Assembly: GCF_902833045.1 (NCBI RefSeq) | Contig: NZ_CADFDU010000009.1 | Coordinates: 1 to 64,000 of the forward strand | Direction of reading: 5' to 3' | Source of the DNA: Burkholderia sp. BCC0322 | GTDB taxonomy: Bacteria; Pseudomonadota; Gammaproteobacteria; Burkholderiales; Burkholderiaceae | Length of the DNA: 64,000 nucleotides | Shown here: in pieces, positions 23,128 to 59,821 of the stretch | How positions within the stretch are numbered: the stretch's first letter is position 1 | Layout: each line of letters opens with the position of its first letter | Notes under the pieces: generated by a model | What the model was told of the DNA's origin: nothing | Database searches by the model: none | The model's input: only the letters and a program-made list of their open reading frames with translations | Made by a program: the position numbers and the translations under genes

Positions 23128-23254
23128 CACGGAGACCGTAGCAGCCGGCAGGCTGCGCATCGCCTGACCGTAGCAATCCCAAGAACGACCGCCCCGACTG
23201 TGCGTTCGCAGCCGGCGGGGACGGCTTTGTCTCCACCCAGTCGAAGGAATGCGT

Positions 23255-24592
23255 ATGACCACCAAGCCAACCGGCGATATCGCCGCGCATCGCCTGTCGT
23301 CCACGCAACTGTCGTGCGAATTCGCCGATATCGCGCCGCTGCTCGATCCGACGGCCGCCGCGGCCGCCGCCAGCCGCTGCCACTACTGCTACGACGCGCC
23401 GTGCGTGCAGGCCTGCCCGACCCGGATCGACATCCCGAGCTTCATCCGCAAGATCGGCAACGGCAACCTGAAGGGCGCCGCGACCGACATCCTGTCGGCG
23501 AATCCGCTCGGCGGGATGTGCGCCCGCGTGTGTCCGACCGAGATCCTGTGCGAAGGCGCATGCGTGCGCAATCACCAGGATGCGCAGCCCGTCGCGATCG
23601 GCGCGCTGCAGCGGCATGCGACCGACTGGGCGATGGAGACCGGTGCGGTGCGCTTCACGCGTGCGCCCGACACGGGCCGCCATGTCGCGGTGGTCGGCGC
23701 GGGGCCGGCCGGGCTCGCATGCGCGCACCGGCTCGCGCTCGCCGGGCACCGCGTCACGCTGTTCGACGCGCGCCCGAAGGCCGGCGGCCTCAACGAATAC
23801 GGGATCGCCGCATACAAGACCGTCGACGCGTTCGCGCAGCGCGAAGTCGAGTGGCTGCTGTCGGTGGGCGGGATCGCGTTGAAAACCGGCGTCGCGCTGG
23901 GGCGCGACATCGCGCTCGACGCGCTGCGCGAGCAGCACGACGCGGTGTTTCTCGCGATGGGCCTCGGCGGCGTGCGTGCGCTTTCGATCGACGGCGAGCA
24001 ACTGGCCGGCGTGATGAACGCGGTCGACTTCATCGAGCAGGTGCGGCAGGCCGACGCGCTGGAGCACGTGCCGGTCGGGCGGCGCGTCGTCGTGATCGGC
24101 GGCGGCAATACGGCCATCGACGCGGCGGTGCAGAGCCGCAAGCTTGGCGCCGAACGCGTGACGATGGCGTACCGGCGCGGCGTGGACGCGATGAGCGCGA
24201 CATGGGCCGAGCGCGAGTTCGCGCAGAAGAGCGGCGTCACGCTCGTCACGCACGCGAAGCCGGTGCGCATGACGGGTGTGGACGGGCAGGTGACGGGTGT
24301 CGAATTCGAGTCGGCGTCGGGCGAGCGCTTCACCGTCGATGCGGACATGGTGCTGAAGGCGATCGGCCAGACGCTGACACCGGACGGCGTCGACGCCGCG
24401 CTGCTGACGGCGGACGGTGCCCGCATCGCAGTGGACGCGGACGGGCGCACCGCATGGCCCGACGTATGGGCCGGCGGCGACTGCGCGGCGACGGGCGGCA
24501 TCGACCTCACGGTGCAGGCCGTGCAGGACGGCAAGCGCGCGGCCGCGTCGATCGACGCAACGCTTGCGCAGCGCGCCGCGAAGGCCGCGTGA
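23255..24592 (+). CDS. preT: NAD(P)-dependent dihydropyrimidine dehydrogenase, subunit PreT
   Basis: 445 aa flavoprotein subunit. N-terminal iron-sulfur domain with CHYCYDAPCVQACPTRIDIP and CARVCPTEILCEGACV; FAD site VVGAGPAGLACAHRLALAGH; NAD(P) site VVIGGGNTAIDAAVQSRKLGA; final VWAGGDCAATGG. It takes electrons from NAD(P)H to PreA for reduction of uracil or thymine to the 5,6-dihydro form. ATG at 23255 has AGGA 7 bases upstream; one at 23249 is less well placed. Confidence 0.93.
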   Translation: MTTKPTGDIAAHRLSSTQLSCEFADIAPLLDPTAAAAAASRCHYCYDAPCVQACPTRIDIPSFIRKIGNGNLKGAATDILSANPLGGMCARVCPTEILCEGACVRNHQDAQPVAIGALQRHATDWAMETGAVRFTRAPDTGRHVAVVGAGPAGLACAHRLALAGHRVTLFDARPKAGGLNEYGIAAYKTVDAFAQREVEWLLSVGGIALKTGVALGRDIALDALREQHDAVFLAMGLGGVRALSIDGEQLAGVMNAVDFIEQVRQADALEHVPVGRRVVVIGGGNTAIDAAVQSRKLGAERVTMAYRRGVDAMSATWAEREFAQKSGVTLVTHAKPVRMTGVDGQVTGVEFESASGERFTVDADMVLKAIGQTLTPDGVDAALLTADGARIAVDADGRTAWPDVWAGGDCAATGGIDLTVQAVQDGKRAAASIDATLAQRAAKAA

Positions 24593-26072: not shown

Positions 26073-29104
<3,032 letters not shown>

Positions 29105-47782: not shown

Positions 47783-48406
47783 CTATCCAACCGGACGAAG
47801 ATCGGCAAAATTGATTGTTCTTGCACCGCAGCCCTCTGTAAGCCATCGATCGTGACTCGAGAAGAACACCACCCGATCTTTTGCCAGCGTGCGGAAGAGA
47901 TCCATGAGGACGCCGCGCGCGGCGTCGTCGAGCCCGTTGCCAGGCTCGTCCGCAATGACGATCGAGGCTTCCCCGAGTGTGATCGCGCTCAAGAAAATCT
48001 TCTTGCGAGTGCCGAGGGACATCTGCTCAAAGCGCTTGTCCAGGTGCGGCGCCAACCCGAAACGATGAGCCAGATCGAGCGTGCGACGATCGACGACCGT
48101 TTTTTTAGTCGCGGCGACGAGTTCGAGGAACTCACGTCCAGTCTGGAACGGATACGCGATGCAGTCGTCGGGCACATATGCGAGTGACGACTTCGCCTTG
48201 AGCGGCGCTTCACGCAGCGAATGACCGTTGATCCAGACATCGCCTTCATCGGCATCGATGGTCCCGGCGAGGATGCCAAGCAAGGTCGACTTGCCGCTGC
48301 CGTTTTCGTCACAAAGCGCCACGCACCCGGCCCCGAAGCTGTGACGCAGCCCCTGGAATATGACGCGCTCGCCATAGCGTTTGTGGAGGTTGTCGATTCG
48401 AAGCAT
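47783..48406 (-). CDS. ABC transporter ATP-binding protein
   Basis: 207 aa. Walker A region is CDENGSGKST (Asp in place of the usual first Gly), signature MSLGTRKK in place of LSGGQ, Walker B IVIADEPGNGLDD, and H-loop SSHD. The degenerate signature is usual in some ABC-2 type exporters; the first-Gly change in the P-loop is unusual. Starts 11 bases after the permease gene and pairs with it. Cargo unknown. Confidence 0.85.
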   Translation of the reverse strand: MLRIDNLHKRYGERVIFQGLRHSFGAGCVALCDENGSGKSTLLGILAGTIDADEGDVWINGHSLREAPLKAKSSLAYVPDDCIAYPFQTGREFLELVAATKKTVVDRRTLDLAHRFGLAPHLDKRFEQMSLGTRKKIFLSAITLGEASIVIADEPGNGLDDAARGVLMDLFRTLAKDRVVFFSSHDRWLTEGCGARTINFADLRPVG

Positions 48407-48417
48407 CGTGAAGCCTA

Positions 48418-49620
48418 TCAGACGAAGATTTGCCATGCGGCGGCGATCCAGATCGCGGCGAGTATTGCGCCGAGCAACACGGATTCCCCCGGCGCACAGC
48501 GTTGTGGCAAACGCAGCAGCGCAAGCAGTGGCGCCCCGGCCAAGACGATGGCTGCCGCGACGTGGGCCGCCAGGACGCCGTGCACGACCAGAAACAGGGG
48601 CGCGGCAGCCGCGAATGGCAGTGCCAGCGTGGCGACGGTCAGTACATCCGCACGAACCTGCACGATCGAGGCAAGCGGGAGTGAGCGCACAAAATGGGCC
48701 GCGCGAACATGACTCGCGCGCAAATCGCGATAGGTCGTCGCCGAGATCAACGCGATCGCAGCCTGCGCGATCAGCGTCAATGGCACGACGCGTGCGTCGA
48801 AACCCCAAAGGTCAATCACGTAACAAGTGGACGCAGCGACCGCGCCCATGACGACGCAGCGGCTAACGGTTCCTGCGAGGTGAAACCTTACGATACCGAG
48901 CTGAAGTTTGACCAACGCCGGAAGCCGGCGCGATGCATTGACGGAAATGCGATTGGTGAATCGACGCCACGTTGCACCGAGCTGCCCCGCACGCGCAGAG
49001 GATGCCGCAGGCGCATGGATCAACGCGAACGCAGCAACGATCGACGCCGCCGCCAGCAGCGTCGTCTGCAGCGCGTGACCCGTCTGCAGCGCGCCGATCA
49101 GCATGAAATTGGCCATCACCAACGACACTCCGTTACTGATATTGCGCGACAACGCGACCAATTGCCATCCAAGCGTAATCATCGTCAAATCGATCACGTA
49201 CAGATAGTTCGAGGCCTTGTGCGGCAAGTAAGCGAACGCGATCGCAGCGGCAACGACGGGCAGCAGCAGCGGCGTACTCGCGATCAGCACGATGGTTGCG
49301 TCGAGGGCGCGGTGACGCCGATTGGAAACAGGCAACGACTTGACGAAGACGGCGAAGGGGCCGCCGCTGATGGCCGTACGTTGAATCAGCACCCAGAGCA
49401 TGCCCATGGCTTCGAGCATGTGCATCCAGACGAACCGCCATTCGAAGCCATGCTCCGGAGCCAAAGGTGCGAGTACGGGCGCGCCCAAGAGGCGGGACTG
49501 TGCGAACAAGGGCATTGCGGGTACCAGCAGCAGGACAGCAAGTAATAGAGCCTGCCAGTGCTTGTGCAGCGTCCGGGCCGTCGCCAGTACGTACCAACGC
49601 AATCGCCACGACAGCATCAT
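48418..49620 (-). CDS. ABC-transporter membrane protein
   Basis: 400 aa with roughly ten hydrophobic segments and charged loops. No named permease family is recognised, but the gene sits directly before an ABC ATPase (11-base gap), so it is the likely membrane half. An alternative ATG is one codon further on. Confidence 0.7.
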   Translation of the reverse strand: MMLSWRLRWYVLATARTLHKHWQALLLAVLLLVPAMPLFAQSRLLGAPVLAPLAPEHGFEWRFVWMHMLEAMGMLWVLIQRTAISGGPFAVFVKSLPVSNRRHRALDATIVLIASTPLLLPVVAAAIAFAYLPHKASNYLYVIDLTMITLGWQLVALSRNISNGVSLVMANFMLIGALQTGHALQTTLLAAASIVAAFALIHAPAASSARAGQLGATWRRFTNRISVNASRRLPALVKLQLGIVRFHLAGTVSRCVVMGAVAASTCYVIDLWGFDARVVPLTLIAQAAIALISATTYRDLRASHVRAAHFVRSLPLASIVQVRADVLTVATLALPFAAAAPLFLVVHGVLAAHVAAAIVLAGAPLLALLRLPQRCAPGESVLLGAILAAIWIAAAWQIFV

Positions 49621-49780: not shown

Positions 49781-50650
49781 TCACGCGCACTCGATCGCCG
49801 CGGCGCGGGTCGACCGGCTGAGCCGGATCTCGCCCAGGTAGGCGCTGTCGCCCAATTCGCATGCTCGCGACGCGTTGCCGAGGGCATGCCGGATTTGCAC
49901 CCTGTAGGAGCCGCTGCCTTTGGCCAGACCATCGAACCGGAAATCGCCGAAGCCGTCGGAGACGGTTTCGGCTATCAACTGATTACCGGCGTACAACGCG
50001 ACGGCCGCATCCGCGACACACTCGACCACGTCTGCGGCTTGGACACTGACGCTTCCGCCGACGAAGCACGTTTCCCAGCGCTCAAGGCCGCTGTACCACA
50101 CGCGGGGCTTCGTACCCAGGTTGGGTCGCAATACCTTGAGCCCCTCGCGTCGGGCCTTCTCGGCCATCGCCGTGTCATCGAGCTTGACCGTCTCGAAGAC
50201 ATCGGTGGGGCACGACTGCTGGCAGCGCGGACGGGGCCAACCCTGGTCGAGCAAATGGGCATCGAAGATCCAGATCTGGGGCAGTTGCAGTTCTGCGTTC
50301 CACACGATCGCCTTGTAAGGGCAGGCCTTGACGATGTCCTGTCGGCCGCGCGCCTTGTCCGGATCGATGATGACGATGCCGTCGGCACGCTTGCGAATGG
50401 CGTTGCCGCCGACACGCATGCACGGCGCGTCGTCACAGTGGTTGCACATGACCGGCAAATACGTGGTCTCGATCATATGCGCGGCACCGTGCACGCGACG
50501 CAGGATGCGGATGGGGCTCTCGGCGTCGGCCGAGGCGGGCGCGGCGTAACCGGGGAAGTCGTTGCCGACGTGCTCGTCCCGCGCGGCGATCACGCAGTTC
50601 TGGCAGTTCTCGCAACGTCCGACCTTGATAATCAGGTTCCACTTGCTCAT
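49781..50650 (-). CDS. Iron-sulfur subunit of an AthS-like molybdenum enzyme
   Basis: 289 aa from MSKWNLIIKVGRCENC (GAGG upstream; 10 bases after the large subunit). It resembles the small subunit of Pelobacter pyrogallol-phloroglucinol transhydroxylase (AthS), e.g. DGIVIIDPDKARG, CPYKAIVWN, GTKPRVWYSGLERWE and a C-terminal beta domain (about 195-289) of the Cna-B type. Cysteines: 13, 16, 19, 69, 72, 77, 110, 143, 147. Compared with AthS (12 ligands, three clusters) it lacks the 4th Cys of motif I (Ala23) and the CxxC before the AHLLD segment (Trp127, Asp130). By ferredoxin pairing the three losses all belong to one cluster; two clusters, C13/16/19/147 and C69/72/77/110, stay complete. Confidence 0.85.
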   Translation of the reverse strand: MSKWNLIIKVGRCENCQNCVIAARDEHVGNDFPGYAAPASADAESPIRILRRVHGAAHMIETTYLPVMCNHCDDAPCMRVGGNAIRKRADGIVIIDPDKARGRQDIVKACPYKAIVWNAELQLPQIWIFDAHLLDQGWPRPRCQQSCPTDVFETVKLDDTAMAEKARREGLKVLRPNLGTKPRVWYSGLERWETCFVGGSVSVQAADVVECVADAAVALYAGNQLIAETVSDGFGDFRFDGLAKGSGSYRVQIRHALGNASRACELGDSAYLGEIRLSRSTRAAAIECA

Positions 50651-50660
50651 TGGAAAATCC

Positions 50661-53639
50661 TCACGCTGCGCGACCGAGCATGAACGCCTCGGCACCGCGC
50701 CATTTCTCGACCTGCACCAGGCAGGAATTCGGGCTCATGCTGCTCGTGCCGGCGGTCTGCGGCCGGTCGGGGGTGAGCATGTTCATGCAACCGCCAATCT
50801 CGACTTGCTCGCCGTCGATTTCGATCAGCTGGAATTCGGCGCTCGCCTCGTAGGATTTCACTACGCCGGCGTTCACCAGCGGCGAGACATCGGCCGCACA
50901 GATCACCGCGCCGCGGTCGTTGTGCACCTTGACGAGATCGCGATGGGCAATGCGCCGAATCGCGGCGTCGGCCGGATTGAGCCGCAGCAGCCAGAACCGG
51001 TGCCCGGCAATCAGCGCGCGATGATCGTCGACGCTGTTCACCGCGGAACGCTTGCCGTCGCAATGGGTATGAAAGCTGTAGCGGCTGTGGGTGGCGATCA
51101 ACTGCAGCGGGTAGCGTTGAGCCAGGTCCGAGCGCAGGCCTTCCCACGACGGGATATATCGGTTGAGCGGCGGCCGCTCGGGATTGTCCGCGGTGTGCCG
51201 CTTCAGCAGTTCGGGCACGAACTCGAGCTTGCCGCTCGGCGTCTGCAAGCCCCGGCCAAACTTCTCCGCGAACTGCGACGGTAGCGGATGCGGTTCCGGC
51301 AGATCCTTCTTCCGGTCTTCCGCATACCAGCGCATGTCCACGGGATGGCGAAGCTCGGGCTTTTCGGGCGGCACGACGAAATAGCCCTTGCGGCAGAATT
51401 CGCGCCACGACACGTGATCGGGCAGATCCGACGAATCGAACACGCGCTTGACCCAGTCGAGCTCGCCGCAGCCCTCGGTGAAAACGCCACCCAGGCCCAA
51501 CCGGGTCAGGATGGCGGTGAAGATGTCGTAGTCGGAACGCGATTCGCCCAAGGGCTCGATGCACTTGTGCTGCATCGTCAGCATCCGATGGTTGACCGTG
51601 CCATACCCGTGATGGGCGTAGCCGCCCGAATTCGCCCATTCTCCGATGTCCCAACGTTCCAGCGACGTGCACGCGGGCAGGATGATGTCGGCGAACTGGG
51701 CTTCGCCTTCCATCCAGATCGACTGATTGACGACGAACTCGATGCTCGAGTGCCGGTAGGCCTGCGTCCAGCGTCCGGAATTCGTCACGGTACTGAACGC
51801 GGATCCGCCGTAGCGATAGATCATGTGGATCGGCGAATAGCCGGGCATCGGGTAGGTGAACGGCGCGAACTGGGCTTCCTGCGACATGCCGTCCCACAGA
51901 TAACCGGTGGCATGGCCGTCGAGAATCGCATCGGGCATCTGCTGTCGCGGCACCATCTGCTTGACGGGATTCATGGTCAGGATGTGCGGCATGCGCTGGT
52001 AGTTGTCCACCGCATTGGCCGTCCACGCGAGGTCGCCTGAAATGCCGCCGTCCGCGTAGCCGGGGAAATAGAACTGGAGATCGTGCGGGGCGCCGATTTC
52101 GAGGCAGCCGAAATTCACCCCAGGCTTACCCCAGCCCTGCATGGCCATCATCATGATCATGCAGCGCGCCCATTGCGCGCCGGTCGCGCCGCGGCCCGCG
52201 CCACCGAATCCCGCGCCGGTCATCCCGACGGCGAGATGCACCTTTTTCCTTCCCCACAGGCGCGCAAGGGCGCGGGCGTCCTTGGCCGGCACGCCGGTCT
52301 CGCTCTCCTGCCACTCGGGCGTCTTGGGAATCCCGTCGGTTTCGCCCAGGAGGTAGGCTTTCCAATCGTCGAAACCGGTCGTGCGCGTGGCGACGTAATC
52401 CTGGTCGTACAGGCCCTCGACTGTCCATACATACATGATGGCGGTCGCCAGGGCGGCATCGGTTTGCGGCCGGATCGGGATCCAGCGGCCGCCCAGCAGC
52501 TGGGCGGTCGGATTGCAGTGCGGGTCGATGTGAACGAACTCGATCCCGAGCTCCTTGGCCCACAGGCGGCGCGGCGTTCCCTCGAATCCTGCGTAGGCGC
52601 CGTTGGTACTCTCGGGATCGCACGACCAGAAGACGATCATTTCGGCTTCCTTGAGACCATCCTCGAGGCCGCCATAGCCGGAGGGCACGCCCACACGCAT
52701 CGAGTTGCCGAAATGATGCATGGCGCCCCAGTACCAGCCTTCCCAGCTGTCCGGATTCGCGGCGACCCGGGTGAAGCCGATCAGGTTGGCGAAGCGCGTC
52801 AGCGCGCTGAGGTAGTAGCCCACGTTGCCCCACTGGTGGTGGGACGACATCGGGAACGTGATGGAACCGGGGCCGTGAACGCGCTTTTGCCGGTTGATCT
52901 CGTTGGCGACGATGTCCAGCGCCTCGTCCCAGCTGATACGTACATAGCCGGACTTGCCGCGGTTCTGCGGATTGCGCTCGCCGTCAGGGTCGAAGTCGAC
53001 TCGTTTCATCGGGTGAAGGATGCGCTTGTCGGAGTAGACCAGCGACTTGAGCGTCAACGCGTGGGGCGCGACCAGGCCGCGCCGTGGCGGGCTGAAGCGG
53101 CGTCCGCGTGCCTCGATCACCCAGCTTGGCGCATCCGTATCGTCCAGCTCGATGGGGGTCACGCGGACGATGCGGCCATCCTTGACGTAGACGAACAGAG
53201 GCCCGCCGTTGGTACACGTGGTGTAGCGCCGGGTGCCGTCGCGCATGGGGGTGCCCATCGGCTGGCCGACGGTGCGCATCATGCTCAGGGTTTGCATGAA
53301 CCAGACCAGCAGTGCGTCGTCGCCGTCGGTGACCACCTTGAAGTTCTTGGCGGCGTGGACGATTTCGCCCTGGTCCGGGCTGGGTGAAAGAAACTTCAGC
53401 GCGGTCGCGACATCCTTGAAGGCCATGCGGACGTCGGGCTGCAGGTGCTTGCCGGCGCGTGACCGGATGCGGCCATTCCTGATCTCGATGGCGCGGCCGA
53501 TGCTTTGATCCATGAGCCCGATCCACGCGACGAGATTGCGCTCCTCGAGACGTTCCCGGTAGGCGGGGAAGCGGCGGGCCGTCAGGTCCAGAACCTTGGG
53601 CAACGCAAATAGAATGGTCTTGAGAACCTGTCGTTTCAT
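50661..53639 (-). CDS. AthL-like molybdopterin oxidoreductase with N-terminal SCP2-like domain
   Basis: 992 aa from MKRQVLKTIL, cytoplasmic (no Tat signal). Residues about 35-125 (QSIGRAIEIRNGRIRSRAG to KNFKVVTDGDDALLVWF) resemble an SCP2 sterol-carrier domain. From about 140 the protein is a DMSO-reductase-family catalytic subunit closest to pyrogallol-phloroglucinol transhydroxylase large subunit. His267 (SSHHQWGN) and Asp297-Ser298-Trp299 (NPDSWEGW) match AthL His144, Asp174, Ser175 (molybdenum ligand) and Trp176 with identical spacing; FYFPGYADGGISGD follows at 523-536. There is no N-terminal Fe-S motif, as in AthL. The small subunit gene follows 10 bases downstream. Typical AthL is about 875 aa, so the extra N-terminal domain explains the length. 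Substrate unknown. Confidence 0.88.
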   Translation of the reverse strand: MKRQVLKTILFALPKVLDLTARRFPAYRERLEERNLVAWIGLMDQSIGRAIEIRNGRIRSRAGKHLQPDVRMAFKDVATALKFLSPSPDQGEIVHAAKNFKVVTDGDDALLVWFMQTLSMMRTVGQPMGTPMRDGTRRYTTCTNGGPLFVYVKDGRIVRVTPIELDDTDAPSWVIEARGRRFSPPRRGLVAPHALTLKSLVYSDKRILHPMKRVDFDPDGERNPQNRGKSGYVRISWDEALDIVANEINRQKRVHGPGSITFPMSSHHQWGNVGYYLSALTRFANLIGFTRVAANPDSWEGWYWGAMHHFGNSMRVGVPSGYGGLEDGLKEAEMIVFWSCDPESTNGAYAGFEGTPRRLWAKELGIEFVHIDPHCNPTAQLLGGRWIPIRPQTDAALATAIMYVWTVEGLYDQDYVATRTTGFDDWKAYLLGETDGIPKTPEWQESETGVPAKDARALARLWGRKKVHLAVGMTGAGFGGAGRGATGAQWARCMIMMMAMQGWGKPGVNFGCLEIGAPHDLQFYFPGYADGGISGDLAWTANAVDNYQRMPHILTMNPVKQMVPRQQMPDAILDGHATGYLWDGMSQEAQFAPFTYPMPGYSPIHMIYRYGGSAFSTVTNSGRWTQAYRHSSIEFVVNQSIWMEGEAQFADIILPACTSLERWDIGEWANSGGYAHHGYGTVNHRMLTMQHKCIEPLGESRSDYDIFTAILTRLGLGGVFTEGCGELDWVKRVFDSSDLPDHVSWREFCRKGYFVVPPEKPELRHPVDMRWYAEDRKKDLPEPHPLPSQFAEKFGRGLQTPSGKLEFVPELLKRHTADNPERPPLNRYIPSWEGLRSDLAQRYPLQLIATHSRYSFHTHCDGKRSAVNSVDDHRALIAGHRFWLLRLNPADAAIRRIAHRDLVKVHNDRGAVICAADVSPLVNAGVVKSYEASAEFQLIEIDGEQVEIGGCMNMLTPDRPQTAGTSSMSPNSCLVQVEKWRGAEAFMLGRAA

Positions 53640-53692: not shown

Positions 53693-54430
53693 TCAGAACG
53701 TATAGGCGACGTTCAGGAACACGCTGAGGGGATTGAGCCGGAGCATCGATCTGGAAACGATCGGCGTGCCCGTCGCGGTCTGTCCGTATAACGTGAGGTG
53801 GGTTTTCACGGGCATGTAGTTGACGGAGGCCCCGACTGACCAGTGTCTTGTCAGCGCGTAATTCGCGCCGATCTCGAACACGGGATTCCACGACGCGCTG
53901 AGCGTCGCTCGTGCCGAGCCGCCCGGCCCGAAGCTGTCGGAGATGAACTGGCTGTTGGTTGCCCGAACCTGCGTGAACCACGTGTAGTTCGCGCCGATGC
54001 CCAGGTACGGACGGAATTTCGATGCGGCTGAAAACAGGTGGTAGCGAAGTTCGATGGCGGGCGGCATCGGCCGTGTCGTGCCGAGCGTGCCGTACTTCTG
54101 CAACGTCCCGTCGCCGATCAGATTGACTTTCAGCGGCATGCCCAACAGCATGGCGACACCCAGGTGGTCGGTGATGTAGTACTCGGTGGTTATTCCGAGC
54201 GTATCCGTCGAACTGGCATGTGCGCCGGTGCCGGCCAGTTGCTGATTCACCGTCATGCCGCCCACGCTCTGCACGGTCAGGGGCGTTGCGTCGCCCTGTG
54301 GGGCAATGTGCAGCCATCCTGCCGATGTCGTAATGCTGCCTGCCGTCTGCGCATCGGCATGGTCGGCAAGCGAGGCCGAGCAGATACAAACCGCCGCGCC
54401 TGCGAAACGCATCGTTCGCCTGAACTTCAT
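53693..54430 (-). CDS. OmpW/AlkL-family outer-membrane protein
   Basis: 245 aa. Signal peptide (FRRTMRFAGAAVCICSASLADHADA), then an eight-strand beta-barrel pattern: GITTEYYITDHLGVAMLLGMPLK, ELRYHLFSAASKFRPYLGIGANYTWF, PVFEIGANYALTRHWSVGASVNYMPVKT and a C-terminal Phe (NVAYTF). AlkL-type members admit hydrophobic compounds. Between the ligase gene and the molybdenum enzyme in one operon (53 bases before the latter). GGAG 8 bases before the ATG. Confidence 0.9.
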   Translation of the reverse strand: MKFRRTMRFAGAAVCICSASLADHADAQTAGSITTSAGWLHIAPQGDATPLTVQSVGGMTVNQQLAGTGAHASSTDTLGITTEYYITDHLGVAMLLGMPLKVNLIGDGTLQKYGTLGTTRPMPPAIELRYHLFSAASKFRPYLGIGANYTWFTQVRATNSQFISDSFGPGGSARATLSASWNPVFEIGANYALTRHWSVGASVNYMPVKTHLTLYGQTATGTPIVSRSMLRLNPLSVFLNVAYTF

Positions 54431-54569: not shown

Positions 54570-56540
54570 TCAAGGCGACCTTATTGGCCGCGCGGCGATC
54601 GAGATCGAGAACGCAAACGGAAAGCGCCCCAGCACCAGTCGGGCCGCGGGCTCGAGCCCGGCGTCGCTCAACTCGACCGACACCGACATTCCGCCCGATT
54701 CGTTGGTCGTGACGTCGATCGATGCACCGGGGGCGCCGCCCTGCGCCAACGCTTCGCGGAGCGCGTCACGCGTCTCGCGGCGCTTGAGTTCCGGTTTGAA
54801 GATCTTGCCGACGCCCGTGAGCGGGATCGCTTCGACGATTCGGACGTGCTTGGGCAGCGCGGCGCGTTCAGTGATCTCCAGTTGCATGAACGCTGCCAGA
54901 TCGTGCTCGGTCGCGCTCATACCCGGCTTGAGCTGAACGTATGCGACCGGCAGCTCGCCGGCATGCGCGTCGGGGCGCCCGATTGCCGCGGCGATCTGGA
55001 CCGCCGGATGTCGATGAAGCGGTTCCTCGATCGCCGCGGGGTCGATATTGTGCCCGCCGCGGATGATCAACTCCTTCTTGCGGCCGGTCAGCCAAAAGTA
55101 ACCGTCGACATCGCAGCGGCCGAGGTCGCCGGTGTTGAGCCAGCGCTTGCCGTCGCCGAGATCGAGCCACAGGGCCCTGTTCTGATCGGGGCGCGTATAG
55201 CCGGTGAAAACGTTCGGCCCCGAGATGACGAGCAGCCCGTCCTCGTTCACCGCGCAATCGCGCAGATACCGTCCCGCATCGTCCACCACGACCGCCTTCA
55301 TCGCCTGGAACGGGATGCGCAGCCCGATCGATCCCAGCCGACGCTCGCCGTTCGGCGGGTTGACGCTACTCACGCACGTGCCTTCGGTCAGGCCGTAGCC
55401 TTCGAGAATCCGGATGCCGGTTTTTTCCTGGAAGGCCCTGAAGACGCCGACCGGCATCGGCGCCGCACCGCACAGGCCGTATTCGAGCGAGTCGATGGCA
55501 TGGCCGTCGGCGGGAATGTCGAGCAGCGACGCATAGAGTGTCGGGACGCCGCTGAAGAAATTGATGCGATGATGTTCGACGATTTCCCAGAAACGCTTGA
55601 CGACACCGTCGCCCCGGTAACCCTGCGGTGTGCCGAGCACGACATGGGCGCCGCGCGAGAACGGCAGCAGGCCGGTCACCATCGCCGCATTGACGTGAAA
55701 GAGCGGCAATCCGCAGAAGGTCGTCTTGCCGGGGCCGATGCTGTCGCCGAGAAACCGGCCGGCGCTCCATGCATTCGCGACCTCGTTGCCGTGGCTGCGC
55801 ATCGCGATTTTCGGCAACCCGGTGGTGCCGCCGGTACAGAAGAACGACGACATGTCGCCGGGTTGAAAGCGGCGCGCGTTGTCGAGCGCCGTACCCGATT
55901 CCCGCGCGATCGCCGTACCGAAGTCGTGAATCTGGATAGGTGCGGGCACCGCGCCGCGCAAACCGTCGTCGCCGTGCAGCTTCGTGCACGCGTCACGCTG
56001 GAGCGTTCGGGCAGCGGATTGCGCCGCGCCCCGCACGCGATCGGCCGGGTTGACCAGCACGAGATGCCGCAGCGACTCGACCCGGTGAAGGATGGCCGCG
56101 ACTTTCTGCCAGAGATCGGTGCCGGGAAATGGCGCGAGCGTCACGAGTACGCTCGCACCGGCGGCATCGAGCAGATTGCCTATCGCCTCGCTTTCGAGCA
56201 GCGGATTGATCGCGCAGACGATGCCGGCCGCCTGCCCGCCCCAGATCACGAAATGCGTTTCGGGAAGATTGGGCAGCACATAGGCGATCACCGAATCCGA
56301 ACTCACGCCGAGGCGCGTGAACAGGTTGGCCGTGCGCGTGATGTCGCTAACCAGCTCGCGATAGGTCCAGCGCTCGGCGTCGCGGTGCGCGTCGGCGCTC
56401 GGAAAGAAGGAGAGCGCGGGGGCGGACGGATCGATGGCCGCACCGGCGCAAATCATCTCGTACGTGCTGGCAGGGAGGTCCGCCGGCAGGCCCTGCGCCT
56501 CGATCGCCAGCACGTCGTCCCGGGTCGCGATGCCGTTCAT
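54570..56540 (-). CDS. AMP-forming acyl-CoA ligase
   Basis: 656 aa from MNGIATRDDV; the start overlaps the FAA-hydrolase stop (ATGA). ATP motif FCTGGTTGLPKIAMRSH at about 234-250, LEGYGLTEGTC, LNTGDLGRCDVDGYFWLTGRKKELIIRGGHNIDP, and the C-terminal TGVGKIFKPELKR with the acylation Lys. It would activate a carboxylic acid, perhaps the ring-cleavage product or a side-chain acid, to the CoA thioester. An extra ~90-residue tail follows the standard C-terminus. Confidence 0.9.
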   Translation of the reverse strand: MNGIATRDDVLAIEAQGLPADLPASTYEMICAGAAIDPSAPALSFFPSADAHRDAERWTYRELVSDITRTANLFTRLGVSSDSVIAYVLPNLPETHFVIWGGQAAGIVCAINPLLESEAIGNLLDAAGASVLVTLAPFPGTDLWQKVAAILHRVESLRHLVLVNPADRVRGAAQSAARTLQRDACTKLHGDDGLRGAVPAPIQIHDFGTAIARESGTALDNARRFQPGDMSSFFCTGGTTGLPKIAMRSHGNEVANAWSAGRFLGDSIGPGKTTFCGLPLFHVNAAMVTGLLPFSRGAHVVLGTPQGYRGDGVVKRFWEIVEHHRINFFSGVPTLYASLLDIPADGHAIDSLEYGLCGAAPMPVGVFRAFQEKTGIRILEGYGLTEGTCVSSVNPPNGERRLGSIGLRIPFQAMKAVVVDDAGRYLRDCAVNEDGLLVISGPNVFTGYTRPDQNRALWLDLGDGKRWLNTGDLGRCDVDGYFWLTGRKKELIIRGGHNIDPAAIEEPLHRHPAVQIAAAIGRPDAHAGELPVAYVQLKPGMSATEHDLAAFMQLEITERAALPKHVRIVEAIPLTGVGKIFKPELKRRETRDALREALAQGGAPGASIDVTTNESGGMSVSVELSDAGLEPAARLVLGRFPFAFSISIAARPIRSP

Positions 56541-57493
56541 GCCGCTTCGTCCACGATCTCGTTGCGTTGCACGCCCAGGTCGATCGTTCCGTCGCGGCTC
56601 GCGATCCGGGCTTCGACGATGTCTCCGGCCTTCAGGTACTGCGCGCGTCCCGCCTGCACCTTCATGAACATCTTCCACTTCACGGATTCGGGAAACAGCG
56701 CGACGGCCCGCTGCTTGAGCGGCGACGGGATGCTGAGTGCGCAGCCGGCCGGCGTGCCGGTCGCGAGCAGGTCGCCGGCGTGAAGGTCGTGCACGCCCGA
56801 CAGCTCGGTCAACGTCTCTGCCGGGCCGTAGACGAGGTTCGATGTCGAATCCTGCTGACGCACCGCGCCGTTGACGGTCAACGTCAGGTCGAGCGCCTTC
56901 AGCTTCGGGAAGTCACGCCGTTCGAGCAGGCACAGATACGGGCCGACCGGGCCGAACGTCCGGAAGCTCTTGCCCTTGTAGAACTGCATCTGCGGGATCT
57001 GGACATCGCGCGCGGAATAGTCGTTGACGATCACGGTGCCGGCGACGTAGTCGTGCAGGTTCGCGTCCGTGATCTGCCGGCGAGACGTGATGTCGCGTTT
57101 GAGAATGAGGCCGAGCTCGATTTCGTAGTCGAGAAACCGGACGTGCCGCGGTTTCACGACCGGCGAGTCGGCGGCGACGATGCAACTCGTCGCCTTCGTG
57201 AAGATCATGTTGAACTTTTTCGCGTCCGGATCCATGCCCGACTCGATCATGTGCCGGCGATAATTCGCGCCCTGGCAAACGAATTGCTGGTTGGCCGTTA
57301 CCGGGGGCAGCCATTCCACATCGGTCTCGGGAATCGTCGGCCCGTCGAGCGCGACGAGCCGCTCGACCGGATTCGCCGCGAGAAAGCGCGCGGTCGTTTC
57401 GAAGTCGCCGGGAATCGGCGTGACGGCACCGTTGGCGACCACGCCCCATTGGGCGCGGCCGTTATGCCGGAAGTGCAGGACTAGCAGTGACAT
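56537..57493 (-). CDS. Fumarylacetoacetate hydrolase-family protein
   Basis: 318 aa. FAH core: QGANYRRHMIESG, metal-binding acidic residues in FLDYEIELGLIL, NDYSARDVQIPQMQFYKGKSFRTFGPVGP, and DLLATGTPAGCAL. Members split C-C bonds in acylpyruvates or hydrate/decarboxylate ring-cleavage products. It follows the extradiol-type dioxygenase gene (37 bases) and couples to the ligase, consistent with processing a ring-cleavage product. Confidence 0.92.
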   Translation of the reverse strand: MSLLVLHFRHNGRAQWGVVANGAVTPIPGDFETTARFLAANPVERLVALDGPTIPETDVEWLPPVTANQQFVCQGANYRRHMIESGMDPDAKKFNMIFTKATSCIVAADSPVVKPRHVRFLDYEIELGLILKRDITSRRQITDANLHDYVAGTVIVNDYSARDVQIPQMQFYKGKSFRTFGPVGPYLCLLERRDFPKLKALDLTLTVNGAVRQQDSTSNLVYGPAETLTELSGVHDLHAGDLLATGTPAGCALSIPSPLKQRAVALFPESVKWKMFMKVQAGRAQYLKAGDIVEARIASRDGTIDLGVQRNEIVDEAA

Positions 57494-57530: not shown

Positions 57531-58601
57531 TCAGGCGAACAGCTTCGCCAGGGTCAGCAGCTTGCTCAGCGTCAGGTCGGGGCTGCGGCGCAGGTTGCGA
57601 AACAGCGCCGCGACGCTCGACGGCGTGAAGCGGGGCTTCGTGAAGCTGCGCGGCATCGTCGGGCCCCACTGCGCCATCGCTTCGCGGCTGACCGCGTGCA
57701 CGCCCGTCGGCTCGTCGGCCGTGAACAGGTCGCCGTCGCAATAGTGTTCGTGCTTGTCGCCCCACGGGTCCTGCCAGTAGTCGAAGATCTGGCTGCCGAG
57801 AATGTGCCGGCCGATGCCCCACGCATGGGTCCACCCGCTGTCGCGAAGCATGCGCTGGCCCATGCCGACGGCATCGGCGTCGACCAGTTCGTACGCGCTA
57901 TGGCTATAAGTCGGCACGAATCCCTGGGCGAGCGCGAGCGTATGGTGATCGGCCGGCCTGTCGCCCAGATCGAGCCGCAGGAATGCGACCGCAGGGGAGC
58001 CGTCCGGCAGCACCTGGACATCGCTCGGGATGAACCCGAAATGCTGCGTGTACCACGCGCAGGTTTCCTGGTAGTCGGCGAGCTCGAGCACGACGTGCCC
58101 GAGCCGGATGACCTCGGGTGCGCTCGCCGGCGGCCGCTGCGTCTCGTTGATCCGCACGGGCGCGTCGACCGAGTTGAACCGGAGCGCGGCGCGATGCGGC
58201 AGCAAGCCGGCCGATGTCTGGCCCGCGATCGCGTCGACCCGAAAGCCGGACGGATCGGTGAGGCGCACCCGGTGGCCGCCACCGGGCCAGTCCGATGCCT
58301 CGACTTTCGACGCGCCCGGGATGCTGGCGAGGGCTTCCAGATCGGCCCGGCTGTCGACCCGCAATCCGAAGCCGACGAAGCGGGCCTGCCGCGCGTGGCG
58401 AACCACATAACAGAAGGGTGCGGCGCCCGTGCCGCGCAGCAACAACTGCGTGTCGTCCCGCAGCACGGTTCGCAGACCGAAGTCGTTGAGAAAGTGCTCG
58501 GCCTCGTCGAGGTCCGGACGATCGAAGATCAGATAGGCGAGCGCCGATGCCTTCGTTGTGGGGCGAGGGTGTCGCGCCGGCTGTGGGGTAGTCAGTTTCA
58601 T
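57531..58601 (-). CDS. VOC-family extradiol-type dioxygenase
   Basis: 356 aa with two VOC modules (about 20-135 and 165-300). Type-I extradiol iron ligands are visible: His in LGHVVLEL, His in DHHTLAL and Glu in GDKHEHYCDGD, with the expected Tyr in FDYWQDPWG. It most likely cleaves a catechol- or polyhydroxybenzene-type ring next to its hydroxyls. The C-terminal ~50 residues are an extension. No strong ribosome site; a possible small upstream ORF ends 12 bases before it. Confidence 0.85.
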   Translation of the reverse strand: MKLTTPQPARHPRPTTKASALAYLIFDRPDLDEAEHFLNDFGLRTVLRDDTQLLLRGTGAAPFCYVVRHARQARFVGFGLRVDSRADLEALASIPGASKVEASDWPGGGHRVRLTDPSGFRVDAIAGQTSAGLLPHRAALRFNSVDAPVRINETQRPPASAPEVIRLGHVVLELADYQETCAWYTQHFGFIPSDVQVLPDGSPAVAFLRLDLGDRPADHHTLALAQGFVPTYSHSAYELVDADAVGMGQRMLRDSGWTHAWGIGRHILGSQIFDYWQDPWGDKHEHYCDGDLFTADEPTGVHAVSREAMAQWGPTMPRSFTKPRFTPSSVAALFRNLRRSPDLTLSKLLTLAKLFA

Positions 58602-58613
58602 CGCGGATGACGG

Positions 58614-58934
58614 TCAGGCAGGTCGAATGGCAATCACGAAGGCAGGCGCCGTCGCATCGAGGGGCTTCGCGCGCGACCGCCGACATGCAATCGCACCGTC
58701 GCGCGGCACGACTCGCTGGCCCATGAATATCGCGCGGTCGATCGGCGATTTCGCATGGGGGCGGCGCGCTTCGTCGTGAGTACCGCGACTGGCCGGCAAA
58801 TGACCCGTTGCGGCGCCGGCCGGCCCGGATCCCGGGATCGGTACGCCGAGCGCCGAACGCAATCCGCGCTCGGGCGACAAGGGCAGGTTGCCGTGAATGG
58901 GCGCGCTGGCGCCCGTGTGCAGATGTGTCTCCAC
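58614..58934 (-). CDS. Possible small leader protein of the aromatic operon
   Basis: 106 aa from a GTG with GGAG 6 bases upstream; ends 12 bases before the dioxygenase start. No domain recognised and the composition is Arg/Pro/Ala-rich as in non-coding GC-rich frames. Its place in the ~390-nt leader of the operon is the main reason to record it. Confidence 0.3.
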   Translation of the reverse strand: METHLHTGASAPIHGNLPLSPERGLRSALGVPIPGSGPAGAATGHLPASRGTHDEARRPHAKSPIDRAIFMGQRVVPRDGAIACRRSRAKPLDATAPAFVIAIRPA

Positions 58935-59071: not shown

Positions 59072-59821
59072 ATGCCGAACACACCGAATCGCCGGACCCC
59101 AAAGCGCTCCGCGCCGGAAGCGCCCGCGCCCGCAGCCGCCGAAGAGCGCGAGCCGCGCGGCGCGCGCCGCAAGCGGGAGACCCGCGCCCGCCTGCTGGAC
59201 GCCGCGCTCAGGCTGATGGCCGAGAAGGGGATGGAAGGGGTCGCCATCAACGAAATTACCGAGGCCGCCGACGTCGGCTTCGGCTCGTTCTACAACCACT
59301 TCGAATCGAAGGAGGCGATCTACGCCACCCTCGTGGAATCGGTATTCGAGGAATTCGCGGATTCGCTCGATCGTCTGGCCAGCGGCTTGTCCGACCCGGC
59401 GGAAATCATCTCCGTGTCGGTGCGGCATACGCTGATGCGTGCACGGCGCGAGCCGGTATGGGGGCACTTCCTGATCCGCGAGGGTTTTTCGGCACGGGTC
59501 CTGACGTTCGGCCTCGGCCAGCGCCTGCTGCGGGACATCGAGCGCGGTATCGCCGAGAAACGCTTCGTGGTCGCCGATCCGTTCATCGGCTTCCTGTCGG
59601 TCGGCGGTACGGTGCTGACCGCCATTGCCGCCGAGCTCAACTTCGTCGCGCCGGGCGCGCCGGCCGCCGGTGTGCTGAAGGAACTGGGCTTCAGCGGGGA
59701 GCATTTTCCGGAACGCACGGCGGCAACGCTGCTGCATACGCTGGGACTCAAGCGCGCGGAAGCCGAGAAGATCGCGAGCCGGCCGCTGCCGGTCGTGGAG
59801 GCGGCCGAGACGGCACAGTGA
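59072..59821 (+). CDS. TetR-family regulator of the aromatic operon
   Basis: 249 aa. After a proline/arginine-rich N-terminal tail (1-30), the DNA-binding domain KRETRARLLDAALRLMAEKGMEGVAINEITEAADVGFGSFYNHFESKEAIYATLV is typical. The C-terminal domain has no recognised ligand signature. Divergent from the six-gene operon with shared operator, so a ligand-released repressor is the expected role. Confidence 0.92.
   Translation: MPNTPNRRTPKRSAPEAPAPAAAEEREPRGARRKRETRARLLDAALRLMAEKGMEGVAINEITEAADVGFGSFYNHFESKEAIYATLVESVFEEFADSLDRLASGLSDPAEIISVSVRHTLMRARREPVWGHFLIREGFSARVLTFGLGQRLLRDIERGIAEKRFVVADPFIGFLSVGGTVLTAIAAELNFVAPGAPAAGVLKELGFSGEHFPERTAATLLHTLGLKRAEAEKIASRPLPVVEAAETAQ

Follow-up and report, generated by a model that had tools for sequence, protein, structure and literature searches.

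Genes and features of the locus

A 64,000-nucleotide stretch of Burkholderia sp. BCC0322 (contig NZ_CADFDU010000009.1, positions 1 to 64,000; hereafter the window) carries a gene pair for a molybdenum (Mo) enzyme related to AthLS, the pyrogallol-phloroglucinol transhydroxylase of Pelobacter acidigallici (PDB 4v4c), and to RehLS, the resorcinol hydroxylase of Aromatoleum anaerobium LuFRes1. The original prediction, made from the letters of this stretch, had described a transhydroxylase-type Mo enzyme encoded together with an extradiol dioxygenase. The large-subunit gene is real, spans positions 50661-53639 (992 amino acids, aa) and lies on the minus strand, which had not been given. The gene pair and the features around it are listed below.

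49781..50650, minus strand: RehS-type small subunit (iron-sulfur), 289 aa; two cluster sites have their Cys, the third lacks three of four
50661..53639, minus strand: large (Mo) subunit, RehL-type, 992 aa, ATG to TGA; assigned by sequence, alignment and tree
52743..52841, minus strand: active-site stretch from His267 to Asp297-Ser298-Trp299, aligned with AthL; Ser is the Mo ligand by homology
53229..53639, minus strand: domain of SCP2 (sterol-carrier-protein) fold at the N-terminus of the large subunit, residues 1-137; missing in AthL
53693..54430, minus strand: OmpW-family outer-membrane protein (PF03922, E 6e-28; match to the NCBIfam OmpW model under its cut-off)
54570..56540, minus strand: acyl-CoA synthetase (AMP-forming), 656 aa (NF005714, 935 bits, cut-off 632); overlaps the next gene by 4 nt
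56537..57493, minus strand: fumarylacetoacetate (FAA)-hydrolase-family enzyme (PF01557, E 3e-47)
57531..58601, minus strand: two-domain VOC extradiol-type dioxygenase, triad His169/His234/Glu285; NCBIfam dioxygenase matches all under their cut-offs
58686..58868, minus strand: fossil of an MhpA-type flavin mono-oxygenase gene, between the VOC and TetR genes, the place of the intact gene in sister operons
59072..59821, plus strand: TetR-family regulator, divergent (PF00440, PF21306)

The small-subunit gene starts 10 bases downstream of the large-subunit gene, and the intergenic gaps of 37, 139, 53 and 10 bases plus one 4-base overlap, all on the same strand, fit a single operon. The NF005714 scan was run on 54570-56546, and the start codon of the acyl-CoA synthetase was verified at 56540. 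The dioxygenase predicted in the same gene run is likewise real: judged by its sequence, the product of 57531-58601 is a putative class I (VOC) extradiol dioxygenase, with two domains and a 2-His-1-Glu triad (His169, His234 and Glu285) that all 56 aligned rows, the window among them, have in common and whose metal-binding assignment we take over from BphC. PDB relatives of the FAA-family protein comprise FAA-fold hydrolases, isomerases and decarboxylases, and we regard it as a putative acylpyruvate-type hydrolase. OmpW would serve the uptake of hydrophobic compounds, and the divergent TetR regulator, an orthologue of which stands beside the operon in many relatives, probably controls the operon.

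A molybdenum enzyme of the RehL type

Among solved structures, AthL (4v4c_A) was by far the best match to the large subunit (E 9.5e-271, against 2.4e-67 for the next, dimethyl sulfoxide (DMSO) reductase), as had been predicted, and it was again the top structure in a fold search (E 2.0e-76; runner-up 1.4e-40). The structure model used had a mean predicted local distance difference test score (pLDDT) of 68 and fell below 50 at residues 265-280 and 293-320, around the active site, leaving the active-site geometry unusable. In the alignment, His267, Asp297, Ser298 and Trp299 correspond to AthL His144, Asp174, Ser175 and Trp176, with the predicted spacing of 31 residues from His to Ser in both proteins, and AthL Tyr404 and Tyr560 are also preserved, as Tyr528 and Tyr674. 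Across 81 aligned Reh-type rows (window included), the His, Ser, Trp and both Tyr were invariant and the Asp was found in 79. L070 and L085 have Ile at the position of AthL Asp174, where a change of reaction is possible.

Of the characterised relatives, RehL of LuFRes1 (65% identity, 645/992, over the full length) is the nearest to the window protein, ahead of AthL (50%, 421/841). LuFRes1 has one strong match to it, the eight others being partial and no better than E 7e-20, and PF21423 likewise matches there once; the gene lies on plasmid pLuFRes1 (locus L055), and we take it to be the published RehL (Darley et al. 2007). Large-subunit relatives were drawn from 80 loci retained from 340 relatives, and both the tree and the pocket counts given below omit large subunits of 970 aa or less. 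In the 85-row tree, AthL, represented by a single sequence on a long branch, branches outside all Reh-type rows, and LuFRes1 RehL and the window fall together on a branch with a Shimodaira-Hasegawa-like approximate likelihood ratio test (SH-aLRT) value of 99. Within this group the window belongs to a clade of 64 rows (SH-aLRT 99), among them Burkholderiaceae, rhizobia and pseudomonads, with LuFRes1 RehL outside it. The tree (from which L081, a second B. stagnalis, was omitted, although it was kept in the pocket count) does not place the window inside another DMSO-reductase group: the S/N-oxide reductase rows, two of BisC type and one unnamed and provisionally called DorA, with DmsA as outgroup and no TorA row, form their own branch. 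Tree and fold search thus back the AthL/RehL branch of Ser-ligand Mo enzymes, separate from the S/N-oxide reductase rows included. PMC10100899 assigns resorcinol hydroxylase to the same RhL/PgtL family as pyrogallol-phloroglucinol transhydroxylase, both with Ser as ligand, and has RehL turning resorcinol into hydroxyhydroquinone. The statement that such enzymes are known from fermenting anaerobes was too narrow, since RehL comes from a denitrifier (reference title) and the relatives include Burkholderiaceae, rhizobia and pseudomonads.

Near-identical proteins (96-97% identity) occur in B. catarinensis, B. stagnalis and B. ubonensis, with L001 and L011 at 97% and L002 at 96% over the full length. 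A plasmid copy in B. stagnalis is 96.3% identical over the full length, and the nearest plasmid record, also from B. stagnalis, covers the whole operon at 90.6% DNA identity. A second Reh-type paralogue, 59-61% identical to the window protein, was seen in 16 genomes of the genus of P. elongata and in one Burkholderia genome (G206). Its places have no VOC place of the window-type operon within 10 kb (for example L135:8348-11278, G003:C125), and at L135 no FAA-hydrolase relative was found nearby either.

Outside the catalytic set the window departs from AthL. The AthL residues Arg153, Trp354, Phe468 and Cys557, which we assume to have the substrate-pocket roles assigned to them, are replaced by Tyr276, Phe478, Trp582 and Ser671. 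Arg153 gave way to Tyr or Trp in 81 of 81 Reh-type rows and Phe468 to Trp in 78 of 81, and the pockets of RehL (L055) and the window are alike in their Tyr/Phe/Trp set. The small subunit differs in the same direction. With Cys presumably assigned to cluster sites as in the three-[4Fe-4S] ligand pattern of AthS, the window lacks that pattern: AthS Cys23, Cys126 and Cys129 are absent from all 77 small-subunit rows aligned (sequences under 250 aa left out), window and L055 included. RehL and the window also have in common an extra N-terminal domain of about 130 aa that AthL lacks, 49% identical between the window and L055 in an alignment of 26 chosen rows. Its SCP2 fold was recognised by structure alone: a profile of the domain had no significant match among PDB sequences, and Pfam PF02036 matched 5 of the 26 members weakly (best E 0.013), the window row being without a match. 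The domain probably helps to hold or present a hydrophobic substrate.

These comparisons bear on whether the enzyme is a true transhydroxylase as in Pelobacter, which would move an OH between polyphenols with no net redox change and hand an isomer to the dioxygenase. The retained AthL catalytic residues and spacing agree with such an activity, and fewer iron-sulfur sites would suit an enzyme that exports no electrons; the pocket, in contrast, differs from that of AthL at Arg153 and Phe468 throughout or nearly throughout the Reh-type rows and matches that of RehL.

A conserved gene neighbourhood

The link of the Mo enzyme to a VOC extradiol-type dioxygenase, which had been predicted from the window, is conserved. 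Among loci of 18 kb or more, both a VOC and an FAA-hydrolase gene were found within 10 kb in 51 of the 55 loci grouped with the window (L060, absent from the tree, being counted with the window clade), compared with one of nine outside (L067; L068 just missed the VOC cut, at 3e-10). Gene order varies: the dioxygenase gene is upstream in Burkholderiaceae and directly after the small subunit in Pseudomonas, and several Pseudomonas have a second dioxygenase upstream on the opposite strand. Putative uptake proteins for hydrophobic compounds also vary by lineage, being OmpW, FadL/TodX (L023) or DUF1302/DUF1329/MMPL (L034). In Rhizobium (L023:16559-17847), the VOC near the Mo pair consists of two adjacent single-domain proteins of 204 and 225 aa.

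This persistence across several bacterial groups, despite the differing gene orders, argues against the Mo enzyme being merely co-located with the pathway and doing another step, such as the reductive dehydroxylation of a side intermediate. Some bis(molybdopterin guanine dinucleotide) (bis-MGD) enzymes do dehydroxylate catechols, according to PMC7028382, but the same source puts the catechol dehydroxylases near acetylene hydratase and away from AthL, and we consider this explanation highly improbable.

At the LuFRes1 locus, no two-domain VOC or FAA hydrolase was found within 10 kb. A fusion protein resembling pyruvate dehydrogenase E1 (PDH-E1) and a single-domain glyoxalase-type protein stand next to RehS there, so that the missing VOC means none of the two-domain kind. 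No PDH-E1-like partner, as would mark the anaerobic hydroxyhydroquinone pathway of LuFRes1, was found among the 10 proteins of the window's operon region that were scanned.

Alternation with a flavin mono-oxygenase

In B. multivorans (L082), the Mo enzyme is missing from the same operon (VOC, FAA hydrolase, acyl-CoA synthetase, OmpW and TetR), and an MhpA-type (PRK06183) FAD mono-oxygenase gene stands between the VOC and TetR genes. The two proteins are unrelated: MhpA-type enzymes are class A flavoenzymes, which use O2 and NAD(P)H and add one OH beside a phenolic OH, a net hydroxylation. Across two genera, 76 operons comprised 40 with the Mo enzyme alone, 30 with the flavin enzyme alone, four with both and two with neither. 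In Burkholderia (the genus of L001; 65 genomes), the 26 operons, counted as VOC places at 74% identity or more with seven weaker places (39-48%) omitted, divided into 17 with the flavin enzyme, 8 with the Mo enzyme and 1 with neither, none having both. In the genus of P. elongata (L005; 144 genomes), the 50 operons comprised 32 with the Mo enzyme alone, 13 with the flavin enzyme alone, 4 with both and 1 with neither. Each of the 34 flavin orthologues found sits within 10 kb of such a VOC gene, and two Burkholderia genomes (G199 and G206) have one Mo operon and one flavin operon each. The Mo and flavin enzymes are alternative, reciprocally lost occupants of one operon.

Of the two operons with neither, one (G171) retains a flavin remnant and the other (G329) has a more distant flavin mono-oxygenase. 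Among the four with both, the Mo match of G302 is partial (residues 1-886) and the flavin match of G357:C21 is 60% identical. The split flavin gene of G324:C4 (L138) is included in the tally, and Mo genes were tallied without VOC in G340 (VOC split, L137) and G347. Direct checks of 35 and 32 loci agreed with the genus tally.

By parsimony, the Mo/flavin state changed at least eight times on the best VOC tree, a count that applies to this one tree, with good support for 35 of its 77 inner branches, and that is safer than Fisher tests, which wrongly treat operons as independent. Between Mo and flavin operons, dioxygenase identity reaches 96.9%, and at the 80% level there was no position that told the two states apart; with no state-specific residues in the VOC enzyme, the ring-cleavage substrate is probably the same in both.

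Gene fossils in both directions

Remnants of the absent enzyme were found in operons of either state. In the window, the fossil of the flavin gene consists of a degenerate N-terminal FAD motif joined straight to residues ~324-355. Its second part matched in tblastn with 66% identity over 32 aa (E 3e-8) to L044 and 58% over 33 aa (E 5e-7) to L005, and its first part is weak by itself (E 0.058). Flavin remnants at E<0.01 were present in 9 of the 32 Mo operons without an intact flavin gene (window, L001, L002, L003, L006, L007, L010, L011 and L081, with L002 and L081 being one species); the other 23 had none at this threshold, and L009 and L012, with borderline matches (E 0.03 and E 0.01), were left uncounted. 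A reversed-sequence control gave no same-strand match at E<1. Conversely, Mo-gene remnants were found directly after OmpW in 3 of 30 flavin operons: L200 (residues 1-39, 90%, E 4e-15), L204 (residues 714-766, 89%, E 1e-24) and L138 (residues 4-32, 76%, E 5e-7), the best match in the reversed-sequence control being at E 0.009. The simplest reading is that both enzymes formerly coexisted in several lineages and that either one was then lost.

At L138 (19,501 bases, G324:C4), both hydroxylases are broken, with the flavin gene split by ~3.4 kb and a short Mo piece found; G324 also carries a Mo-type operon on another contig. At L136:9216-12788 (G186:C3), the Mo pair is present, but its first ~66 residues and the upstream operon genes were not found, and it is probably decaying.

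The alternation might instead reflect diet, with the Mo and flavin enzymes being peripheral modules for different phenols that feed one cleavage core. Four operons do hold both enzymes, and the MhpA-type and RehL-type enzymes that are known take different phenols. We nevertheless regard separate substrates as rather unlikely in view of the near-total exclusion, the two-way fossils, the near-identity of some dioxygenases across states and the scarcity of operons with neither enzyme (2 of 76, of which G329 has a divergent flavin mono-oxygenase and G171 a remnant).

Proposed function

Reciprocal loss suggests that both enzymes, Mo and flavin, meet one and the same need. Being redox-neutral, an isomerase such as a transhydroxylase could not replace a net-hydroxylating flavin mono-oxygenase. 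The most likely activity of the Mo pair is therefore hydroxylation with water, with export of two electrons. The products of RehL and of the flavin enzyme could both be opened by an extradiol dioxygenase. The transhydroxylase label of the original prediction is not supported: the protein is nearer to RehL, with RehL's extra domain, cluster set and pocket, and its exchange partner is a net-hydroxylating flavoenzyme. Pocket, clusters and exchange together ruled out transhydroxylation as the likeliest function, and we consider it very unlikely.

We propose that the enzyme is a RehLS-type, water-using ring hydroxylase that does the same step as the O2-using flavoenzyme, ahead of O2-dependent ring cleavage, and hold this to be likely. 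The pair at 49781-53639 would be a bis-MGD Mo hydroxylase, probably cytoplasmic. OmpW would import a hydrophobic substrate, which the SCP2 domain would probably help to hold; an OH from water would be added beside an existing OH of a phenolic, probably resorcinolic, ring, and two electrons would be handed to an acceptor. With O2, the extradiol dioxygenase of the operon would then cleave the ring of the catecholic product, the FAA-family hydrolase would cut the acylpyruvate-like chain, and the acyl-CoA synthetase would activate the released acid. The steps after hydroxylation are modelled on orcinol catabolism in Pseudomonas, which serves as an analogue. A hydrophobic compound of resorcinolic or alkylphenolic type is the probable substrate; the SCP2 domain, the acyl-CoA synthetase and the three unrelated uptake systems across lineages point to its hydrophobic nature. 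More tentatively, and with somewhat less than even confidence, we suggest that SCP2-bearing Mo hydroxylases form a widespread group that hydroxylates phenolic lipids such as 5-alkylresorcinols with water in aerobes, sparing O2 for ring cleavage, and that is functionally equivalent to, and repeatedly exchanged with, a flavin hydroxylase.

Several points weigh against this proposal. To our knowledge, no activity has been measured for any member of the window's clade. Two pocket positions differ from RehL (Leu to Ala348 and Cys to Ser671), so resorcinol need not be the substrate, and RehL has the SCP2 domain yet acts on resorcinol, which is not a lipid, so the domain is no proof of a lipid substrate. 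One cluster site fewer than in AthS makes the electron route unclear, and Pfam and NCBIfam scans of the operon proteins showed nothing resembling a membrane quinone subunit or a ferredoxin reductase. The four operons that retain both hydroxylases leave room for a division of work between them by substrate or by oxygen level, the latter being the natural guess for why both were kept. The VOC profile was derived from proteins of the same loci and may miss other dioxygenases outside the clade. Finally, the genus searches scored part of the candidates per genome (in Burkholderia at most 21 for MhpA; in the genus of P. elongata at most 9 for MhpA, 5 for the Mo enzyme and 14 for VOC), and genes may have been missed.

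Relation to known systems

O2-free Mo hydroxylation ahead of oxygenases is not new in principle: in aerobes, Mo hydroxylases of the xanthine-oxidase family (nicotinate and quinoline oxidoreductases) take the OH from water before an O2-dependent step. Unlike the window enzyme, they belong to another Mo family with another cofactor and act on N-heterocycles. The AthL/RehL enzyme family, too, is known already, whereas the clade, the aerobic operon setting, the SCP2 fold and the reciprocal replacement with a flavin enzyme are apparently new, no description of them having been found in the open-licence literature, a body that does not cover key primary papers. Nor was the window's gene set seen in open-licence papers on sorgoleone or alkylresorcinol catabolism, including the available text of PMC12642758. 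RehL and AthL were described from anaerobes; if the proposal is true, their relatives act in ordinary aerobes as O2-free stand-ins for flavin mono-oxygenases, and nature has run an exchange experiment with two unrelated hydroxylases in this operon, with fossils recording losses both ways. It would also follow that 'pyrogallol hydroxytransferase' labels in aerobes are not to be taken as anaerobic fermentation genes.

Other genes in the window

Directly downstream of the operon, at 47783-49620 on the minus strand, lie genes for an ABC (ATP-binding cassette) ATPase and a 400-aa partner without a Pfam or NCBIfam match. In tblastn searches of 85 loci (E 1e-10), the partner had no match and the ATPase had one in a single locus, which places them outside the conserved set. 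Further away, dihydropyrimidine-dehydrogenase-like and amidohydrolase proteins encoded at 23249-24592 and 26174-29104 on the plus strand suggest reductive pyrimidine degradation.

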